Source: Treponema sp.
GTDB taxonomy: Bacteria > Spirochaetota > Spirochaetia > Treponematales > Breznakiellaceae
Reading direction: 5' to 3'
Length of the DNA stretch: 64,000 nt
Assembly (NCBI GenBank): GCA_009781635.1
Contig: WQXU01000009.1
Location: forward strand, 1 to 64,000
Shown here in pieces: positions 8,082 through 50,809 of this stretch (positions within the stretch are counted from its first letter, which is position 1; the number at the start of each line of letters is the position of its first letter). The position numbers and the translations under genes were made by a program. The notes under the pieces were generated by a model. The model was given only the letters and a program-made list of their open reading frames with translations, did not search any database and was not told the DNA's origin.

Positions 8082-10768
8082 ATATTTTTTCCCTTCCCTG
8101 TATTTTTTTTGCTTTCCTTATCGTTTTCCACATGCCCGGTTATAGCAGCAGGATTAAGGAAAATGAGTATCTTTTCGTTATAGATCCCTGTGCCAAAGAT
8201 AAAATCACTGTAGAGCTGTTTAGTATCAAGGATAAATTCACCCTCGGCTTTATCAATCACGTTCCTGACAAGAAGCCCTATGGGAGATATGTTATTTTTT
8301 AAAGTGAGCACATAGAGTTTTTCTTCAGTATAGTCCTGTTTTGTGACAGGCGCAAAATCTTCAGGCCTTGCCAGACGCCATGTAACACCGGCAATATTGA
8401 CAAAACACTCCTTGTTAATTTCCTGAATGTCTTTATTTTTAATACTTTCAATCCTTAAAATGTTAACTGTTTCAACTGCAAAGTATTCTGTCCCTGAACA
8501 TTTAAATATTATTATTTGTTTTTCATTTTCTTCATATTTATTTTTTTCCATTTTCTCATCTGTCTGGGTTAATTGCTGTGCGAGTGAAGCACCGTTGTAT
8601 AATGCTGCTTCTTTTTCCTTATCTTCTATATTCATGAACCGCATAATTCCAGCCGCATCCAAAATAGCAACTGCCCTTCCGCTGCCTAAAACCGTTACGC
8701 ATAAATAGCAGGGGCAGTTTTGCAAGTATACGGGAAGCGGTTTAACAAGGATTTGTTCTGTCTCTACCGCATCGTCTATTAACAGCGCAAAACTTTTTCC
8801 GTCTGCTCTTAGTATAAGACATTTTGTGACACCGGCAGCCAGGCACTTCTCCAGTACTTTAGCGGCAGGGATGCCGGAAGCGCCTTTGATTTTTGCTTCT
8901 ATCTCGTTCATGGTTATAATGGGAATTATTCTCCCGTTAAAACTTAAAACAAGGGATTTGTTTATTTTTTCGATACGCTGCTTTGAGCTTGAATTATTAT
9001 TTATCCGCACTATATGTTCCACATTCAATTCCGGTACTGCGTATAAAATGGAATTAATTTTTATTATAAGAGTGTTTATAATCGACAGGGTAAGCGGCAT
9101 TTTTAACCGTACGGTTGTTCCAACACCCAATTCAGATTCTACCTCGATTAAACCGCCTGACTTTTCTATATTTGTTTTTACTATATCCATTCCAACGCCG
9201 CGCCCTGAAAGGTTTGTTATCTGTTTGGCGGTGGAAATGCCCGGTCTAAAAATTAAATTGTATATTTCATTTTTCGGCATTGATGCCAATTTTTCTTCGG
9301 TCTCTATACCCTGTTCGACAGCCTTCTTTTTTAAGGCATCTGCATCGATGCCGCCGCCGTCATCGGACACTTCAATAATTGCAGAACCGTCATGCATATA
9401 GGCATTGAGGATGATGGAACCTTTCTGCGGTTTGCCTGCCGCAGTGCGCTGTTCCGCTGATTCCATGCCGTGATCTGCCGAATTTTTAACAAGCTGCGTA
9501 ATTGGATCGGCAAGAGCTTCCAGTAAATATTTATCCAGGGTTACATCGTCCCTTAAAATTTTTACAGCGATATCTTTATTCAGAGCCTTTGCTGTGTCAC
9601 GTATCATTCGCGGGAACTTGTTAAATATAACGCTTATCGGCTGCATTCTTGTGAACATTATTTTTTCATGTATTTCACTTGTAAGATAATTTATATCATG
9701 CAATAAGGGCGTAAGGCCCAGAATAGTTTTTTTATGCTCAGCCACAATAGAGAAAAGCTGATTTCGCGCCAACACCATTTCGTTAGCTAAATCCATTAAT
9801 TTATTGATATCTGTAATATCAAGACGGATCGAAAGGTTATTTCCCTGTAAAGCAGCCGGTTTATTTTTTTTATCATTGTCCGCTGCAGCCAGTTGACCTG
9901 ATTTTACCAGACCGGATATTTTTGTCTTTTCATTGATTTTATCTTCCCCAAAAATAATTTTCTTTGATAAAAGACGTATATGCTTTTTATCTACTCCGGT
10001 TGCAATAGAAAAAAGCTCCAAATCCAAAATGCTTGTAATAAGAAATTCTATCGTAGAAGTATCATATTCTTCTAACGCTTTTATCAGTTCACCGGTAAAA
10101 ACGGCTGTATCAGAATTTTTCATTATTTTGCCGCTTACAGCGCCGCTGCTAACAGCGCCGCTGCCTGCGACGACAGCTTGTACAATTAAACCTATAGAAA
10201 AAATATTATCTATCATTCCTTTGGGGTTATGATAGTACTTGCCCAAACTCCTGTTAAACCCAATATTTATGTAATATATTTTATGCCCGTGCTTTGACAT
10301 ATTTTTTAATATTTTTTCCGTCTCATTATCTTTGAAATTAAATGGAATATTTACTTCCCCGGAACTTTCATCATTATTATTACTATTTGCAGCATGAGTA
10401 TATCTTTTTATGGTACCAATGATTTCATTTATGGAAATTGCCTCATCGTTCTGTAAATTTTCTACTAAATCTTTCAGGCAATCAACGCACTGAAGTACAA
10501 TATCTGCAATTTCGTTATCAATTGTCAGAACCTCATCCTTAATTTGCAGCAGGACTCCTTCAAGTTCATGAGTTACAGCAACAATTTTATCAAGCGATAA
10601 AAATCCGGCCGTCCCCTTAAGACTGTGCGCAGCGCGAAAAACAGAATTCATCAATTTATGATCTCCGGCAAACAAAGAAACATCCAGGAATGCCGTTTCT
10701 ATTTTTTCTATATGTATTCTTGCTTCTGCTTCAAAATCACCAAGAAACAGATTTGCATCTATTTTCAT
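8078..10768 (-). CDS. cheA: CheA sensor histidine kinase with two C-terminal CheW-like domains
   Basis: A protein of about 896 residues: an N-terminal Hpt domain with the phospho-His in FRAAHSLKGTAGF, a variable middle, a dimerisation region, the HATPase domain (NSADHGME, SDDGGGID, GRGVGMDIVKTNI) and a CheW-like regulatory domain. After that comes a second CheW-like domain of about 130 residues (QIIIFKCSGTEYFAVETVNIL to the end), which standard CheA lacks. Start 10768 is preferred to 10798: it overlaps the stop of the upstream gene as ATGA and has AGGAAACC upstream. It phosphorylates CheY and CheB. Confidence 0.88.
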   Translation of the reverse strand: MKIDANLFLGDFEAEARIHIEKIETAFLDVSLFAGDHKLMNSVFRAAHSLKGTAGFLSLDKIVAVTHELEGVLLQIKDEVLTIDNEIADIVLQCVDCLKDLVENLQNDEAISINEIIGTIKRYTHAANSNNNDESSGEVNIPFNFKDNETEKILKNMSKHGHKIYYINIGFNRSLGKYYHNPKGMIDNIFSIGLIVQAVVAGSGAVSSGAVSGKIMKNSDTAVFTGELIKALEEYDTSTIEFLITSILDLELFSIATGVDKKHIRLLSKKIIFGEDKINEKTKISGLVKSGQLAAADNDKKNKPAALQGNNLSIRLDITDINKLMDLANEMVLARNQLFSIVAEHKKTILGLTPLLHDINYLTSEIHEKIMFTRMQPISVIFNKFPRMIRDTAKALNKDIAVKILRDDVTLDKYLLEALADPITQLVKNSADHGMESAEQRTAAGKPQKGSIILNAYMHDGSAIIEVSDDGGGIDADALKKKAVEQGIETEEKLASMPKNEIYNLIFRPGISTAKQITNLSGRGVGMDIVKTNIEKSGGLIEVESELGVGTTVRLKMPLTLSIINTLIIKINSILYAVPELNVEHIVRINNNSSSKQRIEKINKSLVLSFNGRIIPIITMNEIEAKIKGASGIPAAKVLEKCLAAGVTKCLILRADGKSFALLIDDAVETEQILVKPLPVYLQNCPCYLCVTVLGSGRAVAILDAAGIMRFMNIEDKEKEAALYNGASLAQQLTQTDEKMEKNKYEENEKQIIIFKCSGTEYFAVETVNILRIESIKNKDIQEINKECFVNIAGVTWRLARPEDFAPVTKQDYTEEKLYVLTLKNNISPIGLLVRNVIDKAEGEFILDTKQLYSDFIFGTGIYNEKILIFLNPAAITGHVENDKESKKNTGKGKNI

Positions 10769-11622
10769 GCCTGGTTTCCTGCTTTGTTTATCCGGCAATG
10801 TTTGTCGGCTGCGGCAATTATTTTATCATAGACTATAGGCTTTTCTATATAATCATTCATTCCTGCTTCCAGACACAATTTTATTTCTTTTTCTTCAACA
10901 TCTGCGGTTGCTGCAATAATTGGAATTTCACGCGCGTTTTCACAGGTTAAGCGCCTTATGGCTTTTGTTGCCTTTAACCCGTCCATAACCGGCATTTGAA
11001 CATCCATCAAAATAAGGGTATACAGATTGGGATCTTTTTCAAATTTTTCAACTGCCTCCCTCCCGTTTACCGCAAACTCAACAGTCAAGCTGTCAATTTC
11101 AGAAAGCATGGCGGCAATAATATCCCTGTTTAGCTCAACATCTTCGGCAACTAAAATAGTTTTGTTATGCAAAATTGTTACAGGTTTATTTGCGCCGGAG
11201 CGGATGATATTCCGGTTAAAATGATTTTTTTCATATTCGCTTGCATTTATCCGAAGCCTTATACGGTCAACTAACGCTTTGGTAGTACCGCGTCTTCTCG
11301 CAGAATAATCAACAGCGCCGATTTCAAATGCGGTAATTTCATCCTCGTCATTGCCTCTTTCTGACAAGAATTTAATGGGAATATTTTTTCTTTTAGCTGA
11401 ATTGAATATATCATTAAATACAGAAAACGCTGTTTCGCGGTTTTCATAAATACAAATAACTATAGCTGATATTTCATCCATTTCCATTGCTGAAAGAGCC
11501 GCCGTACTTGTTGCGGCTATACTTATGTCAAAATGATCCATGAGCTCTGATTTTATTTCGGCCAATATGCGAGGTTCGCTGCTGATAATGAGTATATGTT
11601 TTTTATCTTTACTATTAATCAA
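10765..11622 (-). CDS. double receiver protein: degenerate receiver plus intact receiver
   Basis: A 285-residue protein with two receiver domains in series and no output domain. The second (about residues 150-280) is intact, with VAEDVELN, the acceptor Asp in LILMDVQMPVMDG, and EKP. The first (about residues 8-130) has lost the acidic pair (ISSEPR) and the acceptor Asp (AIVICIYENRE), so it cannot be phosphorylated in the usual way. The start is a TTG at 11622 with GAGGTGA upstream; no ATG fits. As first gene of the che operon it may bind CheA or act as a phosphate sink. Confidence 0.8.
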   Translation of the reverse strand: MINSKDKKHILIISSEPRILAEIKSELMDHFDISIAATSTAALSAMEMDEISAIVICIYENRETAFSVFNDIFNSAKRKNIPIKFLSERGNDEDEITAFEIGAVDYSARRRGTTKALVDRIRLRINASEYEKNHFNRNIIRSGANKPVTILHNKTILVAEDVELNRDIIAAMLSEIDSLTVEFAVNGREAVEKFEKDPNLYTLILMDVQMPVMDGLKATKAIRRLTCENAREIPIIAATADVEEKEIKLCLEAGMNDYIEKPIVYDKIIAAADKHCRINKAGNQA

Positions 11623-21717: not shown

Positions 21718-23229
21718 CTATATTTGAATAAAAAAATCTATTTTTACATATTTGTCTTTCACAATATTATCAATAGTTAAATTTAGTTTTGTTTTTAATT
21801 GTTTTGCTGTTTTATCAAGTTCGTAAATACCTGCTATTTTATTATATTTTGAGTCTATTTCTAAAAAATTATCTAAAGTACATTTTTCTATAGGATATTT
21901 TATTCTCGGCTTATGATAAAGTTCTGCTATCTTATTTAATATTTCATCAGGAAATGTTGGTATATATATTCTGTCAAAGTAAGATGGAGAAAGATGTCCG
22001 CCTGACCCACCTACTGTAATACAGTCAATAATACCAATTTCCTTATAATATTGCATAATACAACGAATTGCAATCGTTTTATTTAAAGAACATTTTTCTT
22101 TGATTGGCCTTAAAATATGAGCGTGAGCATTGTTAATAGTATTATTGTCATCATCTAAATAAACCATACTTCTTCCTGTTCCACTTTCGCCAAATAGTAT
22201 ATCTCCATATTGGATAGTTGGAATTTTTTTTGGCGTTCCTATGTACTCAAAGTTTTTAACAGTTCCGTAATTCAATATTTGCTTGGGAGTTATTAATCTG
22301 TAAAAACCTTTGATGTACTTATCGCTATCAATTCGTGTTCCTAAAAGCCTTATTTCTAAACTAGGTCCTGGTTTAAGATCTAATCCTTGCTTAGTTAGCG
22401 GTAAATAGCCGTTTTTATAATTCAACGTTGGAAATATTAGATATTTATGTTTTTCAGAGTAATAAGTAGCGTCAAGACGATTATTTAATTCTAATTCTCT
22501 TAAACTGGGGAATTCAAATCTAAATTTTTTATTTTTTTGATTGTTATCTAATTCAATTTTTATTAATTCGAATATTTTTTTATGATTTTGTTGGATTTGT
22601 TTTTCTTTATTAATAATTGCTTGAGTAAGCACTTCAACAAATCTCATTGTTTTTGCTGTGTTTTGTTTTGGAATTGGGATTTTACAATCTAAAAACATAG
22701 TTTTTGCATGTCGGATTGTGGCTCCTTTTGGAACCATAAAATCTAGCTGTTCCAGGAATATTTGATGCTTGATAAAAGCAAGTAAATAATACTTATGTTC
22801 ATTTACAGGTAACTTATAAATAGCACCTGAAGTCATAAAATTTTTATAATCTTTATCTAAAATTACAATCTCGCCGATGTTGCTGTCTTTTGAAATCAGT
22901 AAATCCCCTTCCTTCAAATTTTGTTTTACAAAAGTATTTGGCATAATTGGCAATGCAGATTCAGATGTTATTTCTGGTAAAAATGAATATGATTGAAATG
23001 CTTTTGTTCTTAAAAAATAAAAAGGCGATTGGTTGATATAGCTAAGACTGCCAACTTCAACTCCCAAGTCACTTCTTTTTAATGGACGAGATAAGAAATC
23101 TCTTACGTGTTTATAATTTCTATTGGGCATAATCAAATCCACATACTGTGAAGAAGACAGAGTAAATCCTTTTTTCTCAATATTTTTTATAGAAATTGAT
23201 TCGGGTGTTCTTATATAACTGTTATTCAT
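21718..23229 (-). CDS. specificity (S) subunit of a BcgI/type I-like restriction-modification system
   Basis: A 503-residue protein with two target-recognition halves (about residues 15-205 and 240-440), each ending in the conserved region that packs as helices (MRFVEVLTQAIINKEKQIQQNHKKIFELIK after the first). Typical TRD patterns are seen, such as EGDLLISKDSNIGEIVIL and YGDILFGESGTGRSMVYLD. It should choose the DNA sequence cut and methylated by the partner encoded 2 bp upstream. AT-rich; module-like placement suggests transfer. Confidence 0.78.
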   Translation of the reverse strand: MNNSYIRTPESISIKNIEKKGFTLSSSQYVDLIMPNRNYKHVRDFLSRPLKRSDLGVEVGSLSYINQSPFYFLRTKAFQSYSFLPEITSESALPIMPNTFVKQNLKEGDLLISKDSNIGEIVILDKDYKNFMTSGAIYKLPVNEHKYYLLAFIKHQIFLEQLDFMVPKGATIRHAKTMFLDCKIPIPKQNTAKTMRFVEVLTQAIINKEKQIQQNHKKIFELIKIELDNNQKNKKFRFEFPSLRELELNNRLDATYYSEKHKYLIFPTLNYKNGYLPLTKQGLDLKPGPSLEIRLLGTRIDSDKYIKGFYRLITPKQILNYGTVKNFEYIGTPKKIPTIQYGDILFGESGTGRSMVYLDDDNNTINNAHAHILRPIKEKCSLNKTIAIRCIMQYYKEIGIIDCITVGGSGGHLSPSYFDRIYIPTFPDEILNKIAELYHKPRIKYPIEKCTLDNFLEIDSKYNKIAGIYELDKTAKQLKTKLNLTIDNIVKDKYVKIDFFIQI

Positions 23230-23231
23230 TC

Positions 23232-25400
23232 TTATCTCTTTTTTACGAATAAATCTTGAAGTGTTTTTTCTTGTCCTTTACACCATTCTTTGAAGTGTTG
23301 GATTGTTCCTGTAAATTCTTCATCTAATACCACTCGTCCTTCATTATCAATAACTGTTTCGAATGTTTCGTAATTAATCTTATAAATAGGTGCAAAATAT
23401 TTTACACGTTTACTTGTTTTTACTTCATAACCAACTTTATCAATAGCTTTAAAAAAGACTTGATAATTTTGCTCCTTAAGTTTTACTAATTCTTTTTCTT
23501 TCGGTTTATATGCGACAATAACAGAAGTATTTACTCCTGTTTCTCCAAAAACATTTGCGGGTAAATCGAAAATAGCAACAATTCTCATTTTGTCCATTAG
23601 CCACTTCCTGGCTTGCTTATGTGTATCAATTGAAGCAATTGAATTGGAAAGCACAATACCCATTCTTCCATTTTCATCTAAAATTCGATAAGCGTTTTCT
23701 AAGAAAACTACACCTAAATCAATTTTTTTTCCTCCATACAAATTCCATAATTCATAGCATTCCATTAATTCTTTTTCCTTAGAATCTTTTGGTTCAAACG
23801 CTCTGTCATCTCCAAATGGCGGATTTGTCAAAACAACATCAAATTTTTTAAGTTTGGTCTGAGTTTTCCAATTATCCCAATTTCCCGCCTTATGAAGTTT
23901 TGATTTTAATTCTACCAAGTTATCTCTATCGTCAAATTTCCAAATTATAGAACCTAAATCAGACTTGTGTTGCAATTTTGCGTTTCCATCTCCATTCAAT
24001 AGCATATTAAGCTGAGCAAGCATAATCATTTGTTCATCGTTATCCAAGCCGTAAATATTACTATCATCTAATTTTGAATCTGAATTAACATAAGAAACAG
24101 ATAGAAAATCTGCAATTCCTGATGTGGGGTCAATTATCTTTTCTGTACTTCTAGGATTGACAATTTGAACCAGAAAATCAATTATCTGAATTGGTGTTAA
24201 GAATTGTCCTTTTTCTACTTTTGAAAATTCGCTTGCAAATTTATAAAATACAATTTGGTACAAATCTGTCTTGTGTGATTTAAAAAAGCTATAATCCTGA
24301 AATTGTTCAACTGCTTCTGCTATAATTCTTATATGTTCTTCTCTCAGCCAATTTATAGTTTCTGTATCAACCCTATTTAGAATAAACTGATATTCCTGTG
24401 AAGCTTCATTGTATAATTGCCTCATTCTTTCAATAAATGTCTGAATATTATCATCAGATAAATCAATATAATTTCGTTCCTTTTCTGTTACAAAAAATAA
24501 TAAATCCATTTTCTCTTTTTCTTCATCGGTTTTATGCCAATCTAAAAATGCTTTTATTTTATTACTTCGTTTTTCATCAAATATCTTCAATGCGATTATT
24601 TGTATAAGTATTTCATAACCCCGTTGGTTTTTCATACTCACTTTATCCATTGTTCTGAGTATTGCAGATATCCCATCTGTAAGTTGTGTACTATAAACTC
24701 CACTAATAATTTCCAAGTCATCAATTGTCCTTTTACTACGATCTATTTTGGGATTGTAAATTTTTTGGTATAACTGCCCGTAAGTAGGTATCGTAATGTA
24801 TGAATCCGTTAAATGTAGTTGTAAGTCCTTAGTTTGGCTTTCCTCTTTTTTTGTATTGTAGCCTTCATTTAGTCTTAAAAACTTACCTTTTTGTTTTTTA
24901 AAAAGATATAGTCTTTCTGCATCATACAAAATACCAAGACAAAAATCATTTTCTGATTCTTTTAGTGCAGGTTTTAATTGTTGATTCCAAACTGTTTCAA
25001 CATCTTTACTGTTTTCTTTTTTTATTTCTATTACAGCGATAATATGTTTTCTTAACCAATCAAGAGCTTCTTGATTTTTGCTTGTATGATATTCCTTATA
25101 ATACTCAAACCAATTTACATCATCAAAAATAGCTCCATCAAACTTTATAGGTGCAGAATTTTTATTTCCTTTCGGAAAATATATTTCTGTTCCAATATAA
25201 TCTTTAGAGTACATTCCTGAATTAACCAAAGAATATAAAAGTTGCCATTTGTAATACTGCTCATTATTACTACCGTTTTTTTTCTTTAATAATGATTTTT
25301 TTGCAACATTCAAATGTTCTGACAAAAAATTATCCAATTCTGTTGCTGTGGAGTATTTTTTATCAAACTCTGCTTTTACTTCTAAAAATGACTTCGCCAT
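23232..25400 (-). CDS. fused nuclease-N6-adenine methyltransferase (BcgI-like RM subunit)
   Basis: A 722-residue protein. The N-terminal third has a PD-(D/E)xK-type nuclease pattern (TEI near residue 72, D88 in IKFDGAIFDD, E125-x-K127 in VIEIKKEN). The middle and C-terminal part is an HsdM-like methyltransferase with motif I-like IIDPTSGIADFL and motif IV NPPF (VVLTNPPFGDD). Cleavage and methylation on one chain plus a separate S subunit, with no HsdR helicase nearby, fits BcgI-like type IIB/IIG systems better than classical type I. Motif I is slightly off the usual GxGxF pattern. Confidence 0.75.
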   Translation of the reverse strand: MAKSFLEVKAEFDKKYSTATELDNFLSEHLNVAKKSLLKKKNGSNNEQYYKWQLLYSLVNSGMYSKDYIGTEIYFPKGNKNSAPIKFDGAIFDDVNWFEYYKEYHTSKNQEALDWLRKHIIAVIEIKKENSKDVETVWNQQLKPALKESENDFCLGILYDAERLYLFKKQKGKFLRLNEGYNTKKEESQTKDLQLHLTDSYITIPTYGQLYQKIYNPKIDRSKRTIDDLEIISGVYSTQLTDGISAILRTMDKVSMKNQRGYEILIQIIALKIFDEKRSNKIKAFLDWHKTDEEKEKMDLLFFVTEKERNYIDLSDDNIQTFIERMRQLYNEASQEYQFILNRVDTETINWLREEHIRIIAEAVEQFQDYSFFKSHKTDLYQIVFYKFASEFSKVEKGQFLTPIQIIDFLVQIVNPRSTEKIIDPTSGIADFLSVSYVNSDSKLDDSNIYGLDNDEQMIMLAQLNMLLNGDGNAKLQHKSDLGSIIWKFDDRDNLVELKSKLHKAGNWDNWKTQTKLKKFDVVLTNPPFGDDRAFEPKDSKEKELMECYELWNLYGGKKIDLGVVFLENAYRILDENGRMGIVLSNSIASIDTHKQARKWLMDKMRIVAIFDLPANVFGETGVNTSVIVAYKPKEKELVKLKEQNYQVFFKAIDKVGYEVKTSKRVKYFAPIYKINYETFETVIDNEGRVVLDEEFTGTIQHFKEWCKGQEKTLQDLFVKKR

Positions 25401-25523: not shown

Positions 25524-25553
25524 ATTATATGAACTACTGAGAGGTCTTGTCAA
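25524..25553 (-). promoter_or_regulatory. sigma70-type promoter of the RM module
   Basis: On the minus strand TTGACA (25548-25553) is followed after 18 bases by TATAAT (25524-25529), both perfect consensus. Transcription would start about 120 bp upstream of the methyltransferase gene. Confidence 0.75.
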
Positions 25554-25632: not shown

Positions 25633-26211
25633 TTATTTTTTTATTATTATTTCAAATATTCCCTTTACATTTTCATTATATTTTTTTCCAATTATATTTA
25701 TTATTAATTCTTCAATTGAGAAAATAATAGAAATGCAAAGCCCAATAAAAATAATATTTTTGTTAAATAATATAAATACACATATATTTATAAACAGAAT
25801 TATTCCGGTAATTTTATTCCCTAATGTATGTAAAAATCCAAATTTCCTATATTTTATTAAACATATTATTATTGAAATTATTTTTATTGAAGTAATTATA
25901 ATTACATAATATTTTAGTTCCATTAAAATATCAGATTCATAAAATAATGCACAAAGTGTAAGTATAATATAGAATGTAAAATCTGCTATTGAATCAAGCC
26001 AAGCTCCAATAACAGTTTTTTGATTTAATTTTTTGGCAATAAACCCATCTATAATATCAGTTAATCCGCATAAAAGAATAATTGAAAATAATAAATATTT
26101 AATATCCCATATAAATAATAATGAAAATGATAATATAAACCTTAATAAGGACAGTAAATTTGGAATATTAATAATATTATTTTTTTCTCCTTCCTTATTT
26201 ATATACATCAT
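25633..26211 (-). CDS. CDP-alcohol phosphatidyltransferase family protein
   Basis: A 192-residue membrane enzyme with the family motif D-x2-DG-x2-A-(R/K)-x8-G-x3-D-x3-D at residues 52-77 (D52, D55, G56, A59, K60, G69, D73, D77). The usual Arg is Lys. About six transmembrane helices. The family transfers a phosphatidyl group from a CDP-diacylglycerol-like donor to a small alcohol such as glycerol phosphate, inositol or serine; the acceptor is not predictable. It is last in the MarR-controlled operon, 7 bp after the radical SAM gene. Confidence 0.78.
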   Translation of the reverse strand: MMYINKEGEKNNIINIPNLLSLLRFILSFSLLFIWDIKYLLFSIILLCGLTDIIDGFIAKKLNQKTVIGAWLDSIADFTFYIILTLCALFYESDILMELKYYVIIITSIKIISIIICLIKYRKFGFLHTLGNKITGIILFINICVFILFNKNIIFIGLCISIIFSIEELIINIIGKKYNENVKGIFEIIIKK

Positions 26212-26218
26212 TATTTAA

Positions 26219-27097
26219 TTATAGTGATACTATACTATTTCTATAATTTGACAAAATTCCTTCATCAAAACGATTTATTATTCCTTGCAATGCTTCTAAA
26301 ACATCATCTTTATCTTTAGGAAGTTTAGCAACAAAAGGAGCAGTATTTGAAACGGTATTTGCATTTATTGTTGTGGTAATATCAATATTTTTTATAAAAT
26401 TCTGTAATTCATATAATTTTTCTGTTTCACTTGCTGGAATATATTTTCCTGCATTTACTTCTTTATATAATTCTGATTCAGGAAAAATGGTTAAACCTAC
26501 GATATTGATACTTTGCGGATTTGACTTATTAAATATTTTAGCGCTTTCCAATGCATTGCGCTCGGTGTTACCGCTTCCAGAAAGACCATTCAAATATGTA
26601 AGATGATATTTAATACCGGCATTATCTAACCTATGAAGCTGTTCAACAATATCAGAAGCTGTATATCCTTTATTCATATAAGCAAGAGTTATATCATCAC
26701 CAGTTTCCGTTCCAATTGAAATATAATTATAACCTATGGAATAAAGTTTGCTTAATTCATCTTGTGTTTTATTTTTGATGTCAGAAATTCTGGCAAAACC
26801 GCCTACGCTTTCAATATGAGGCAGGAAAGATTTTATTTTTTCTCCGATAGTCTTTAGTTTATAAAAACTCAATCCTATAGGGTTTGCCCCTGTAAGAAAA
26901 ACACGTTTTGCTTTAAGAAATGGTTTTTTTAACTCTATCAAATCCATATCAATTTCTACTTCCGGAGACATCCTAAATGGCGTTCCCTTATACAAACTGC
27001 AAAATTTGCATTTATTGTGCATACAACCAGATGTAACCTGTAAGAGTAAACTGTCTGCTTCAAATGACGGTCTCCATACTTGTCCTGTAAAATGCAT
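26219..27097 (-). CDS. radical SAM enzyme
   Basis: A 292-residue protein with the 4Fe-4S cluster cysteines C25, C30 and C33 in SGCMHNKCKFCSLY, spaced C-x4-C-x2-C as in the CTHNKCTFC-type group of uncharacterised radical SAM proteins. The TIM-barrel features include ISIGTETGDD (SAM-contacting region) and YHLTYLNGLSGSG. No B12-binding or SPASM domain is seen. Lying between a membrane protein and a phosphatidyltransferase under MarR control, it may modify a lipid or small molecule, but the reaction is unknown. Confidence 0.8.
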   Translation of the reverse strand: MHFTGQVWRPSFEADSLLLQVTSGCMHNKCKFCSLYKGTPFRMSPEVEIDMDLIELKKPFLKAKRVFLTGANPIGLSFYKLKTIGEKIKSFLPHIESVGGFARISDIKNKTQDELSKLYSIGYNYISIGTETGDDITLAYMNKGYTASDIVEQLHRLDNAGIKYHLTYLNGLSGSGNTERNALESAKIFNKSNPQSINIVGLTIFPESELYKEVNAGKYIPASETEKLYELQNFIKNIDITTTINANTVSNTAPFVAKLPKDKDDVLEALQGIINRFDEGILSNYRNSIVSL

Positions 27098-27111
27098 TAT
27101 ATTATACCTAT

Positions 27112-27963
27112 TTAATTTGTACTTTTTCTTATTCTTATTATTTCTAATGTTTTTACAGTAAAATATAGAACTACTATATCAACGGTGCTTCGTAAAAGCA
27201 TTTGCGGCATAACACCTTTAAAAATCAATCCTATAAAACTATTAAAAATAATCCAATTTATCCCGATTGTAAGAAAGATTATATTTACATTTCTATATTT
27301 CATATTTTTAAAGAACGGCTCAATGTATACATATATAAAACCCAACAAGAAACCAAATAATAATGTCCATACTATACATGGTACTGGATATTGTGAAAAA
27401 TTATTATTAATAATTCCTGTTTTATATCCTATAATCCTGGTAATTAATATTGTTATTGCAATAATAAATATAAAAATAATATTATTTAATATATTATTTT
27501 TGTAAATATGTTCTTCTTTCTTGCTTATGTTAATATATCCAATAATCAAACACAAAAATAAAACTGGAAGCGCGTCAGCTAATCCCATAAAAAACTGATA
27601 TTTAACAAAATCAAAGCCCCAATAAGAAACAGGTGATGCTTCAACAACAATTTCCTGCATACCAATCATATAAATTAACGCAAATGATAACCCAAACCGA
27701 AACCCAATTTTTACTCCTGATATTTTAATTGCCGATCTGTTTCCAAAATATATTGTTACTGCAGTACAATGGGCAAATAGAATGAGAAAATAAAGCGTTG
27801 CAACAACTGGAAAACCAAGTGCCTTTACAAATATACTGTCAAAATCACCGTCATTAACTTCTGCCGGAAACAAGGCATGGGCAAAAATAGCAAGAATACT
27901 CGACAAAATTATTGCTGTCATATTAACTATTAAAAGTTGTTTTCTGCTAAATTGGTTTATCAT
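27112..27963 (-). CDS. integral membrane protein of unknown function
   Basis: A protein of 283 residues with about eight hydrophobic helices (for example LLIVNMTAIILSSILAIFAHALF and IIFIFIIAITILITRIIGY). I do not recognise the family. Start ATG 27963 is supported by GAGG six bases upstream. It overlaps the end of the MarR gene by 17 bp, so the two are translationally linked. It may be the target or transporter for whatever the MarR protein senses. Confidence 0.6.
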   Translation of the reverse strand: MINQFSRKQLLIVNMTAIILSSILAIFAHALFPAEVNDGDFDSIFVKALGFPVVATLYFLILFAHCTAVTIYFGNRSAIKISGVKIGFRFGLSFALIYMIGMQEIVVEASPVSYWGFDFVKYQFFMGLADALPVLFLCLIIGYINISKKEEHIYKNNILNNIIFIFIIAITILITRIIGYKTGIINNNFSQYPVPCIVWTLLFGFLLGFIYVYIEPFFKNMKYRNVNIIFLTIGINWIIFNSFIGLIFKGVMPQMLLRSTVDIVVLYFTVKTLEIIRIRKSTN

Positions 27964-28432
27964 TATATTCCTCATTTTTTGACAATGATTTCAAGTTAAG
28001 TTCCATCTGCTTTAATACGGCAATGGTGCTTAAAAGGCTTTCCTTTGATAAATCTTTATATAGTGAAGTCATAAAATCATTTATTTCCCTGTCAATATCA
28101 GAAGATACTTTTTTAATTTTTTTTGTAAGTATTATTTTGTACTCTCTTTTATCTTCTTTGTTACGATCAATTTTTATATATCCCTTTTTTTCAAGAGAAA
28201 CCAGTATTTTTTTTATATTCTGATAAGAGCATCCGACAATTTCTGCGACTTCCTTTAGATTAGGACTAGTTTCTTGAAGCAAGTTCAATGTCATTAAAAT
28301 AAAATGCTGTTTCATCGTTATATCGGGGAAAACTTCATCGCCTATTGTTTGTATCCGATTGCTTAAGGAAAATAATGTACCATAAAGCATTATTTCATTG
28401 GGCAAACCGTCAAATTCTGTTCTATGTATCAT
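27947..28432 (-). CDS. MarR-family transcriptional regulator
   Basis: A 161-residue winged-helix protein. The recognition region reads LKEVAEIVGCSYQNIKKILVSLEKKGYI, followed by the wing KIDRNKEDKREYKIILT. ATG 28432 has a perfect AGGAGG (28440-28445) eight bases upstream and is preferred to the longer reading frame. Two inverted repeats overlap its own promoter, so it is probably an autorepressor that also controls the three genes downstream. Confidence 0.82.
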   Translation of the reverse strand: MIHRTEFDGLPNEIMLYGTLFSLSNRIQTIGDEVFPDITMKQHFILMTLNLLQETSPNLKEVAEIVGCSYQNIKKILVSLEKKGYIKIDRNKEDKREYKIILTKKIKKVSSDIDREINDFMTSLYKDLSKESLLSTIAVLKQMELNLKSLSKNEEYNDKPI

Positions 28433-28447
28433 TTCAAAACCTCCTAT

Positions 28448-28496
28448 ATACATAACCTATTATGTATAATATATAACAAGTTATGTATTATGTCAA
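28448..28496 (-). promoter_or_regulatory. MarR operon promoter with two inverted-repeat operators
   Basis: Minus strand: TTGACA at 28491-28496, 17-base spacer, TATATT at 28468-28473. Two 20-bp sites lie over it: 28448-28467 (ATACATAA, 4 bases, TTATGTAT; perfect arms) and 28469-28488 (same outer sequence with one arm mismatch). They are placed 21 bp apart, two helical turns, just as expected for two MarR dimers bound side by side. Confidence 0.75.
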
Positions 28497-30093: not shown

Positions 30094-31893
30094 TTAAGAA
30101 ACCTTAAACCGGGAAACTTCCTTAATTAATACATCAATTCCTTCACGGTTCTTAATTGTAATTTCGTTAACATGATGAACAGCCACATTGATTTGCTCAG
30201 CGCCGGAAGCCATCTCGTTCATGCCTGAAGTGATCTCCTGAGTCACTTTTTCAAGATGCACGCTTTCCTGTATAACTTCCTTTGCTCCTTCAAGCATTTC
30301 ATGGGAGCCGCTCCTTACCTGCCTTGTTATCTCGTTTACATTACTGATTCCGTCAAGCACCTGTTTGCTGCCCGCTCCCTGTTCTTCCATTGCGCTGCGA
30401 ATATTTTCTTCCTGTTCCGCAACAGTCCTGACGCTTGAGTCAATAGCCTCAAAATTTGCCAGTACGTTTTGTGTTGAACGGGTGATCTTGTCAATTGAGC
30501 TCTTTATCTTTTTTAATACAGTGCTAATTGTTTTCGACTGCTCGCTGGAATTCTCGGCAAGCTTGCGGATTTCATCTGCAACTACGGCAAATCCCTTGCC
30601 TGCTTCCCCTGCATGAGCCGCTTCGATGGCAGCGTTCATTGAAAGCAGGTTTGTCTGGCTTGCAATATTTTCCATGACCGAGTTTATTTCCATTAACCCC
30701 TCAGACTCACGCGCTATTTCCTGAATATCCGCCGCTACTTCCGAAAGGCCTGAGCGCCCAATATCGGAGGCCTCTTTAAGTGTTTTTACATTATCGCTGT
30801 TCTTAACAAGAGTTTCGGTAACAGAGCGGGTATTGGCTACCATTTGTTCAATGGCAGATGAAGCCTGGGAAACATTTTCGCTTTGGTTTTCTACATGACC
30901 ATTAAGCTTGTTGATATTTCCAACAACCTGTTCCATAGTCGCATTGGTCTCACTGACGCTGGCGCTCTGGTTTATAACGCGGGTCTTTATGCTCTGGACA
31001 TTGGTAGTGATCTGGTTTATCGCAGCGGCAGTCTCGTTCATATTACTTGCAAGATCATTGCCTGTATTGGACAGCGCTGTTGTCTGGCTTATAATCGAGT
31101 GGATCATTTTGCTGAATTCATCCATTGTCTGGTTGTAGGCTTTGGAAGCTTTGGCAATTTCATCTTTACCTTCATCTGAAAGTTTCTCCGTTAAATCACC
31201 GATTGCAACCTTTTCAAATGCATTGACCAAAAGGCCAAGAGGCCGGCTTATCATGCCGGATATGTACAATGCAAGGAATATCGTAGCGGCAAATGCGACG
31301 GCCAGCGCAATAATTATCGTAACAAGCAAAGTCTGCGACAGTTCTGTTGAACTGGCATTAAGCGATGACGCAGTATTTACCATATACTCAAAACTTCTAT
31401 CGTAATTATTAAGGATTATATCGCTGTGTACTTTGCAATTTTCTAACCCTCTTAGAATATTGGGAACATCGTTTGTTTGAGAAGCTGCGTATAAACCTAA
31501 AACAACGGGCACAAGGTCATTCTGAAACACAGATCTTGCTTCATCAAAGTAGCGTGTCGCCTCTCCTTCGCTTACTGAACCTCTGTATGCGTCCATGTAC
31601 CTATCCAGTACCGGCAGATAGCCTTCGATACTGCGGAATTCTGCTTCAACTTGTGTAAAATTGCCTGTCATAGATGCTATTACCATTTCCCGCACATGTA
31701 TCCTTATCTTTAGAAGAGTTTGTTCAACAAAGGACAAATGCGGCATTGGACGGACTATGTTTCTGTACATGTAAAAACCGGAATCCCTGATTTGCTGCAT
31801 ACCGAAAATGCCTACCACGCCTACGGCGACAGCCAATATGGCAACAATAAAAAAACTCACAATCAGCTTCGTTCTTACTTTCATGTTTTTCAT
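30094..31893 (-). CDS. mcp: methyl-accepting chemotaxis protein
   Basis: A 599-residue receptor with an N-terminal membrane helix, a four-helix-bundle sensor (about residues 35-185), a second helix ([24 protein letters not shown]), HAMP ([23 protein letters not shown]) and the signalling domain. The tip reads [38 protein letters not shown], the classical form. AAAGGAG lies ten bases upstream. The signalling half is close to the MCP at 48.6-50.8 kb, which suggests recent duplication with exchange of the sensor part. Confidence 0.9.
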
Positions 31894-48496: not shown

Positions 48497-48619
48497 TAAC
48501 CCGTCCTTAGAATTAAAACAAAAAACATGAAGTTTTATACAGGCATAAAACTCTCCGGCATAAAAATACTAAAGACATTATATCATTTAATTACAGTTTC
48601 GGCATCTTAAAAGAGCGTA

Positions 48620-50809
48620 TTATTCTACCTTAAACCGGGAAACCTCTTTTATAAGCGCATTAATGCCGTCACGGTTTTGTATGGAAATTTCGTTAACCTG
48701 ATGCACAGCGGCATTAATCTGATCTGCGCCGGATGCCATCTCATTCATGCCTGATGTTATTTCCTGAGTCACCCTTTCCAGATTATTGCTTTCCTGGATT
48801 ACTTCTTTTGCTCCTTCGAACATCTCTTGCGAGCCGCTCTTTACTTCGCGTGTAATTTCGTTTACCTGACTTATTCCGCTAAGAACCTGTTTACTGCCTT
48901 CGCTTTGTTCTTCCATGGCATTACGTATAATATCTTCCTGTTCCGATACAGTATTTACGCTGAAATCAATATCTTCAAACTTGTTCAGAACATTATCTGT
49001 TAATCTTGTTATTTTATCGATAGATTCTTTTATTTTTTTTAATACAACGCCAATTGTTTTTGATTGTTCGCTTGATGATTCCGCCAGCTTGCGGATTTCA
49101 TCGGCGACTACGGCAAAACCCTTGCCTGCTTCTCCTGCGTGGGCTGCTTCTATTGCGGCATTCATTGAAAGCAGGTTTGTCTGGCTTGCAATATTTTCCA
49201 TTACAGAGTTAATTTCCAAAAGCCCTTCGGATTCACGGGCTATTTCCTGAATATCAGTTGCTACTTCCTGCAATCCTGTACGCCCGATTTCGGAAGCATC
49301 TTTTAATATCTTTACATTGTCTGCATTTTTTATAAGCGTTCTTGTGACAGAATGATTGTTTGCCACCATTTCTTCTATTGCAGCGGATGCGCTTGATACA
49401 CAGGAGCTCTGTTCTTCGACATGATTGTTAAGCTTGCGGATATTTACTGTAACCGATTCCATTGTCGCATGGGTCTGGCTTACGCTGGCGCTTTGATTGA
49501 TCACGCGCCCCTTAACGCTTTGAATATTTGCTGTTATCTGATTTACAGCGGCGGCGGTTTCATTCATGTTACTGGAAAGATCCTGCCCGATGCCTGACAG
49601 CCTTGACGCTTCATTTTTAATAACCAGAACAAGGGCTTTTATTTTTTGCAGGGTAAGGTTAAAGTAACGTGAAAGTTCTCCTATCTCGTCTTTGGAATTA
49701 TTATCTATTGTTTTTGTTAAATCACCCTCGCCTTCGGATATATCCTTAAGCGTAGATGTCACACTGATAATAGGTTTGACAATACGCCGGGCGATAACCA
49801 GCGTGATAATTGCAGCCGCAGCAAGTATAACCACTGCGAAAATCATTGAGACCATCGTCATATTCCTGATAGGCCTTTGTATCTCGTTAACAGGAACTGC
49901 AATCATAAGACACCAGGGAGTATCCATTCCGGAAATTTTTACAGGCTGGTAAATCATGTGCATAACAGATTCCAGAATATTGGAATATCTGTTTAAAACA
50001 ACCGGCTTGCCGTTTTCGCCGCCGTTTTCTATTGAACGCATAACACGTCCAAGCTCGCTTCCAAGCTCGTTTATTTCTGCAGGATTGGTTTTGATATTGC
50101 CGCGCACGCGCGAATTGTCAAAATGCGCGACAATTGTGCCGTCATTTGCGTAAACGCCGGCGGCCCCATGTCCGTGAAAAATAGATTCCTTAATTTCATC
50201 AATTATTTCCTGCATATCACTGACATAATTGATGCCGACAAGGCCAACCGGTTTGCCGCCTGCATTTTTAATCGGATACATAACGGCTACAATAGGAACA
50301 TTTCCGTAACCGTAAATATCCCTCCATACAGGAGATGCAATATCGGATTTGTTTGTCATCTCTGCAAGAAAATTCTGCCAGTTTTCATAACCGTCAGAAA
50401 TCAATTCTACATTTCCGGTTCTCCTTCTTGTATAAAAAGTCTGATATTGCCCCAGCTCAGCGTCGCGGTTATCAATTGTATTAGGAAGCCATGCTGTCCA
50501 TATTCCCATAATAGCCGTATTCTGCTGTATTGAGCCCCGTAAAAAATCATTATAATTTCCTCTGCGCGTATCTTCGGCAATGTCTTCAAAATCACTGAAA
50601 ATCATTGAAAGAATATTTCCGTAACCTGTAAAAGCTTCGATCCGCCGCTGAATTTCTATAGAATGAGCAGCCGCCATTTCTTCAACAAATTTAATTGTCA
50701 TCTCTGTCTGCAAGCCGGCAGATTGCGTAAGAGTAAAAACCGATAAAACAGCAATTACAACTGTCAGCATTGCAAGAATGATAGAAATTAATTTTATCCT
50801 AAGACCCAT
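48620..50809 (-). CDS. mcp: methyl-accepting chemotaxis protein with Cache sensor
   Basis: A receptor of about 729 residues: membrane helix ([22 protein letters not shown]), a large double-Cache-like sensor (about residues 30-300, with [15 protein letters not shown] and [23 protein letters not shown]), second helix, HAMP and signalling domain (tip [38 protein letters not shown]). Cache domains bind small organic acids, amino acids or similar. Start 50809 has GGAGG six bases upstream and is preferred over 50842. Confidence 0.9.

Follow-up and report, generated by a model that had tools for sequence, protein, structure and literature searches.

The window, a 64-kb stretch of DNA, holds four minus-strand genes arranged head to tail behind a single promoter and encoding, in order, a MarR-family regulator, a membrane protein, a radical SAM enzyme and a CDP-alcohol phosphatidyltransferase. 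With modest confidence, we favour the view that they constitute a horizontally acquired patchwork operon, in which a MarR protein represses its own expression as part of a cargo-swapping cassette. Its inducer is probably a small molecule, and its site of action is probably the cell envelope. The operon is real and tidy, but it looks like a patchwork rather than a conserved system. Its gene order, promoter, predicted operators, intact active sites and foreign composition are all features of the DNA sequence itself. A joint function of the cargo genes is inferred; a role in envelope or redox stress is speculative, as would be any substrate proposed for the radical SAM enzyme. If this view is right, the lasting result lies more in the switch than in the particular gene mix: the 20-bp operator is recognisable in DNA sequence and gives a direct route to listing the regulon and seeking the inducing compound.

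Organization of the operon

The first gene encodes a MarR-family regulator of 161 aa (27947-28432, minus strand), with a Pfam MarR score of 29.7 bits against a cutoff of 24.6 (PF01047), and is predicted to be an autorepressor. Its start is the ATG at 28432, which has AGGAGG ahead of it; a longer open reading frame reaching 28453 is a less likely alternative. The second gene (27112-27963, minus strand) encodes a multi-helix membrane protein of 283 aa and overlaps the MarR gene by 17-29 bp, depending on the choice of start codon, as an alternative ATG is present at 27975. It is followed after 14 bp by the gene of a minimal radical SAM enzyme (26219-27097, minus strand; 292 aa) and, after a further 7 bp, by that of an accessory CDP-alcohol phosphatidyltransferase (25633-26211, minus strand; 192 aa). 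Since the catalytic motifs of both the radical SAM and the CDP-OH enzymes are intact, these operon genes are not chance frames. The open reading frame positions and the promoter thus agree with the first-pass annotation, which had described a four-gene operon on one strand with gaps of at most 15 bp and one promoter. Its statement that the contents fit no named system also holds, as this MarR-led operon matches none.

Two predicted MarR operators cover the operon promoter

One strong promoter, TTGACA-17-TATATT (28496-28468), precedes the operon, with the -35 box TTGACA at 28491-28496 and the -10 box TATATT at 28468-28473 on the minus strand; it matches the consensus at 11 of 12 positions, with a spacer of 17. 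Two inverted repeats overlie it. The predicted operator 1 (28469-28488; minus-strand sequence ATACATAACTTGTTATATAT) occupies the spacer between the -35 and -10 boxes and covers the -10 box, and the predicted operator 2 (28448-28467; minus-strand sequence ATACATAATAGGTTATGTAT) lies 21 bp from operator 1 and covers the expected transcription start. Both score 16/16 against the consensus of the MarR subgroup discussed below, ATANRTAAYNNRTTAYNTAT, for which 16 is the full score, whereas the best other score in the rest of the 64-kb window is at most 14/16.

Similar palindromes occur in the promoters of related MarR genes, for instance ATACGTAACTTGTTACGTAT in L161 as compared with ATACATAACTTGTTATATAT in the window. 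Indeed, this MarR subgroup in Bacillota has a conserved 20-bp palindromic operator that is usually doubled, the two copies being spaced 20-26 bp apart in 12 of 13 pairs; the window, with its doubled operator at the operon promoter, shows the same trait. The core TAAYNNRTTA was found in the promoters of 22 of the 24 subgroup loci, against 1.55 expected from shuffles, though the exact odds are optimistic, since the pattern had been spotted in these same loci before counting, and for two of them the promoter window was shifted to an upstream operon gene (otherwise the count would be about 20/24). Some of the loci are also near relatives of each other. The density of this core is 8.8 per kb in the promoters as against 0.08 per kb elsewhere in the same loci, and such a contrast of about a hundredfold is hard to explain by prior noticing or by shifted windows.

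The first-pass annotation had placed the operon under MarR control, and this proposal gains from the position of MarR as the first gene and from the two perfect predicted operators over the promoter. Collectively, these data make it very probable that MarR autorepresses the operon through the two predicted sites. A similar organization, with MarR first in the operon and palindromic operators over the promoter, is found in known MarR autorepressors with a co-transcribed effector; the present subgroup differs in having an operator of its own (ATANRTAAYNNRTTAYNTAT, usually doubled) and interchangeable cargo.

The MarR subgroup is associated with varying cargo

Members of the subgroup, which are about 24-36% identical to the window MarR and mostly have the same operator at their promoters, lead or join short operons with varying cargo, typed by Pfam on example loci and assigned by sequence similarity in the others. 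The DUF6544 type is present in L094, L160, L161, L170-L172, L174 and L175, and lies behind a CAAX protease in L168 and L169 (the latter by near-identity). A flavodoxin type is found in L095-L097 and L162-L164, and the family of the window membrane protein in L042-L044, with a CAAX protease beside it in L042 (Pfam) and probably L044. Unclassified membrane-type proteins form the cargo in L165 and L166. Three further types were each seen once, namely a nitroreductase (L173), an FMN-binding protein (L176) and an MFS-like protein (L167). In the MarR protein tree, the window MarR is a long branch, loosely grouped with the flavodoxin set (84/92), and has no strongly supported sister. In the literature collection searched, this MarR type has no name or paper. 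The operator and the cassette family are the part worth following; their cargo includes DUF6544, a membrane family absent from Pfam, and flavodoxins.

The MarR and HxlR regulator families often sense reactive or aromatic compounds. Since both families are found with the parts of the operon, and since the same MarR subgroup appears to control flavodoxin, nitroreductase and FMN-binding cargo, the operon could instead serve a redox or xenobiotic response, in which the radical SAM enzyme helps to remove or repair damage and the membrane genes protect the envelope. Radical SAM relatives adjoin HxlR regulators, and in individual loci (L083, L089 and L098) they adjoin flavin oxidoreductases, but the window operon itself is without an oxidoreductase, and we consider such a response possible though unlikely.

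The membrane protein belongs to a family without assignment

The membrane protein has no Pfam or NCBIfam match; its relatives, too, stay below every cutoff, and a 13-member profile of the family found no match among PDB sequences. An AlphaFold model built from 6 sequences was of low confidence (pLDDT 53) and gave nothing below an E-value of 0.8 in a fold search; it was not used. The closer relatives of the protein are solo genes without the subgroup operator, so the association of MarR with this membrane protein may have arisen repeatedly. Four of the five genomes with the membrane protein are without the radical SAM enzyme.

The radical SAM enzyme comes from an HxlR-linked clade

The third gene product belongs to the radical SAM superfamily (PF04055, 50.4 bits against a cutoff of 29.5), and its cluster motif is CMHNKCKFC, comprising C25, C30 and C33, which are invariant and are the only cysteines in the protein. 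It carries no extra domain, neither B12 nor SPASM being found. The C-x4-C-x2-C spacing had previously been taken to mark an uncharacterised group, but it is family-wide, being common to 66 of 67 homologues, and does not single this enzyme out. The family is widespread, 61 of 398 Bacillota genomes having a match at E < 1e-40.

A tree of 47 radical SAM sequences places the window copy in a 17-row clade (SH-aLRT 98), in which 9 of the 16 other rows have an HxlR gene within 1.2 kb, as compared with 2 of the 30 rows outside the clade. The nearest sequence, L002, is 57% identical, solo, and adjoins an HxlR regulator. Members of this HxlR-linked minimal clade (L002/L093, L049, L050, L054-L057) are about 40-57% identical to the window enzyme and have its C-x4-C-x2-C motif, but elsewhere the genes stand singly or in tandem, often next to HxlR, whereas the window gene occupies the third position of an operon led by MarR. 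No other examined locus pairs the radical SAM enzyme with this MarR type; in the window, MarR takes the place of HxlR beside it. A literature search on HxlR with radical SAM yielded nothing useful. If our reading is right, the placing of this clade under a different regulator offers a way into a widespread group of enzymes whose reaction we found nowhere assigned.

Two known radical SAM groups were considered and rejected. In the radical SAM mobile pair system a MarR also stands beside radical SAM, and TIGR04472 is the top NCBIfam match of the window MarR, but at 32.3 bits against a cutoff of 240. Furthermore, the operon has only one radical SAM gene, whose product does not match, at E up to 1, the pair protein models, which we take to be TIGR04470 and TIGR04471. 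The scores to the lipid-linked B12 radical SAM models TIGR04072 (33.4 against 360) and HpnJ (26.6 against 577.6) are likewise far under the cutoffs. Elsewhere in the family, tandem pairs are present at L079:2372-4209, L083:4504-6291 and L084:4830-6616 and 9422-11266, which fit no known mobile pair models; by eye, the L083 pair adjoins FMN-reductase-like and old-yellow-enzyme-like genes.

An accessory phosphatidyltransferase and the lipid-pathway proposal

The last gene product scores 63.4 bits against a cutoff of 22 for PF01066 (CDP-OH_P_transf), and its catalytic motif DIIDGFIAKKLNQKTVIGAWLDSIAD is intact. The motif reads D-x2-DG-x2-AK-x8-G-x3-D-x3-D, with K for R as compared with D-x2-DG-x2-AR-x8-G-x3-D-x3-D, and places the protein in the family. 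We regard it as accessory because the same genome has two other CDP-OH genes. The domain and the catalytic motif are shared with enzymes of the ClsA and PgsA type, but the window enzyme has AK for AR, scores only 46.8 bits to ClsA (cutoff 240) and 30.2 bits to PgsA (cutoff 109), and has its nearest relatives in an accessory subfamily in Bacillota; assignment as a PgsA, PssA or ClsA equivalog was rejected, all scores being far below cutoff. The best-scoring match within the genome's order is 31% identical, and better-scoring relatives, 29-39% identical, are scattered in Bacillota and usually solitary. None of the CDP-OH relatives examined has a radical SAM neighbour.

In two related Bacillota genomes (L160 and L161), a CDP-OH gene of the window enzyme's subfamily and a MarR-DUF6544 pair of the MarR subgroup are transcribed divergently, and the CDP-OH gene lies just ahead of the gene of an ACP-fused aminotransferase-fold protein (Pfam on L160). 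This is the only independent hint that the MarR subgroup and a CDP-OH gene belong together.

The first-pass annotation had suggested inducible lipid remodelling or a headgroup pathway. Accordingly worded, the phosphatidyltransferase would make a phospholipid, the radical SAM enzyme would alter this lipid in its chain or headgroup, and moving or presenting the product would fall to the membrane protein. The tight four-gene operon, the accessory third copy of the CDP-OH gene, the L160/L161 arrangement and the weak resemblance of the radical SAM enzyme to lipid-linked B12 models are consistent with such a dedicated route. On the other hand, the enzyme lacks a B12 domain and scores far too low to those models, the operator search in L160 and L161 gave no site at the CDP-OH gene itself, and no second locus links radical SAM with CDP-OH or with the membrane protein. 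Dedicated lipid remodelling is thus quite unlikely. A more specific form of it, in which the radical SAM enzyme acts on the phospholipid or the alcohol precursor of its neighbour to give an inducible, undescribed lipid that the membrane protein places or exports, appears very improbable.

The ACP-fused enzyme of these two loci (L160:3245-7207 and L161:3289-7222) resembles alpha-oxoamine synthases, and the region is possibly a lipid locus.

The gene set was found in no other genome examined

Loci were drawn from 149 relatives and, for each gene, from as many as 398 Bacillota genomes; no second locus with the four-gene set was found, and a literature search on the combination gave nothing useful. 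The search for the set in other genomes that had been proposed earlier therefore shows the genes unlinked in all relatives examined, an outcome that the first-pass annotation had named as one that would refute it, and a defined lipid pathway is unsupported. Since this particular mix was found nowhere else, it looks like a patchwork of local making, and a new lipid pathway is not established. It could even be that genes of a variable island share a promoter by chance, with only MarR and perhaps the membrane protein as a working unit: the combination has been seen once, each part has a separate habit elsewhere, and the island neighbours (an EamA transporter, a PNPOx-like protein and restriction-modification genes) are unrelated. 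Such an absence of joint function is nevertheless improbable, since neither the four frames nor the catalytic motifs are damaged, and the 7-14 bp gaps suggest selection for joint expression.

According to the patchwork-operon view that we favour, MarR dimers would occupy both operators and hold expression off until a small molecule, or a chemical change caused by it, releases them; the three cargo proteins would then be made together. The phosphatidyltransferase may use CDP-diacylglycerol as the donor of a phosphatidyl group, with a small alcohol or a phosphatidylglycerol-like molecule as acceptor. The radical SAM enzyme could perform a radical step on a single substrate with electrons from flavodoxin or ferredoxin. 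As a result, the envelope would be altered and made more tolerant, or the inducing compound would be removed.

The operon lies in an AT-rich island

The GC content is 25-32% at about 19-29 kb, as compared with 41% at 14-18 kb and values of mostly 40-48% on the right-hand side. The operon lies in this AT-rich island, which is absent from the searched relatives: the genus genomes searched contain no other membrane protein of this family, and only one has the radical SAM enzyme, in a distant form (32%). One relative, G017, keeps the right-hand pair (SAICAR synthetase and chemotaxis protein) in the same order, and the operon is absent beside that pair within the 1 kb preceding the contig end. The four genes have apparently been imported into a spirochaete-like bacterium. 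No strong direct repeats flank the island, and no tRNA is present in the window.

A phage or plasmid origin was rejected, as viral contigs, plasmids and phages gave no match to the membrane protein and only absent or distant ones to the radical SAM enzyme. A defence system was also rejected, PADLOC having no match for the radical SAM, membrane and CDP-OH proteins.

Restriction-modification genes adjoin the operon at 21718-25400, encoding a 722-aa adenine methyltransferase and a specificity-subunit-like protein. The N-terminal part of the methyltransferase is nuclease-like by eye (FDGAIFDD...AVIEIKK), and the part inspected showed no restriction subunit with a gene of its own. A sigma-70-type promoter with a perfect 12/12 match, TTGACA-18-TATAAT, lies on the minus strand at 25524-25553, in the interval from the operon to the methyltransferase gene. 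Farther along the window, 30094-31050 and 48611-49784 encode similar chemotaxis-type proteins, and a single relative locus, L101, aligns to both regions with 70-74% DNA identity.
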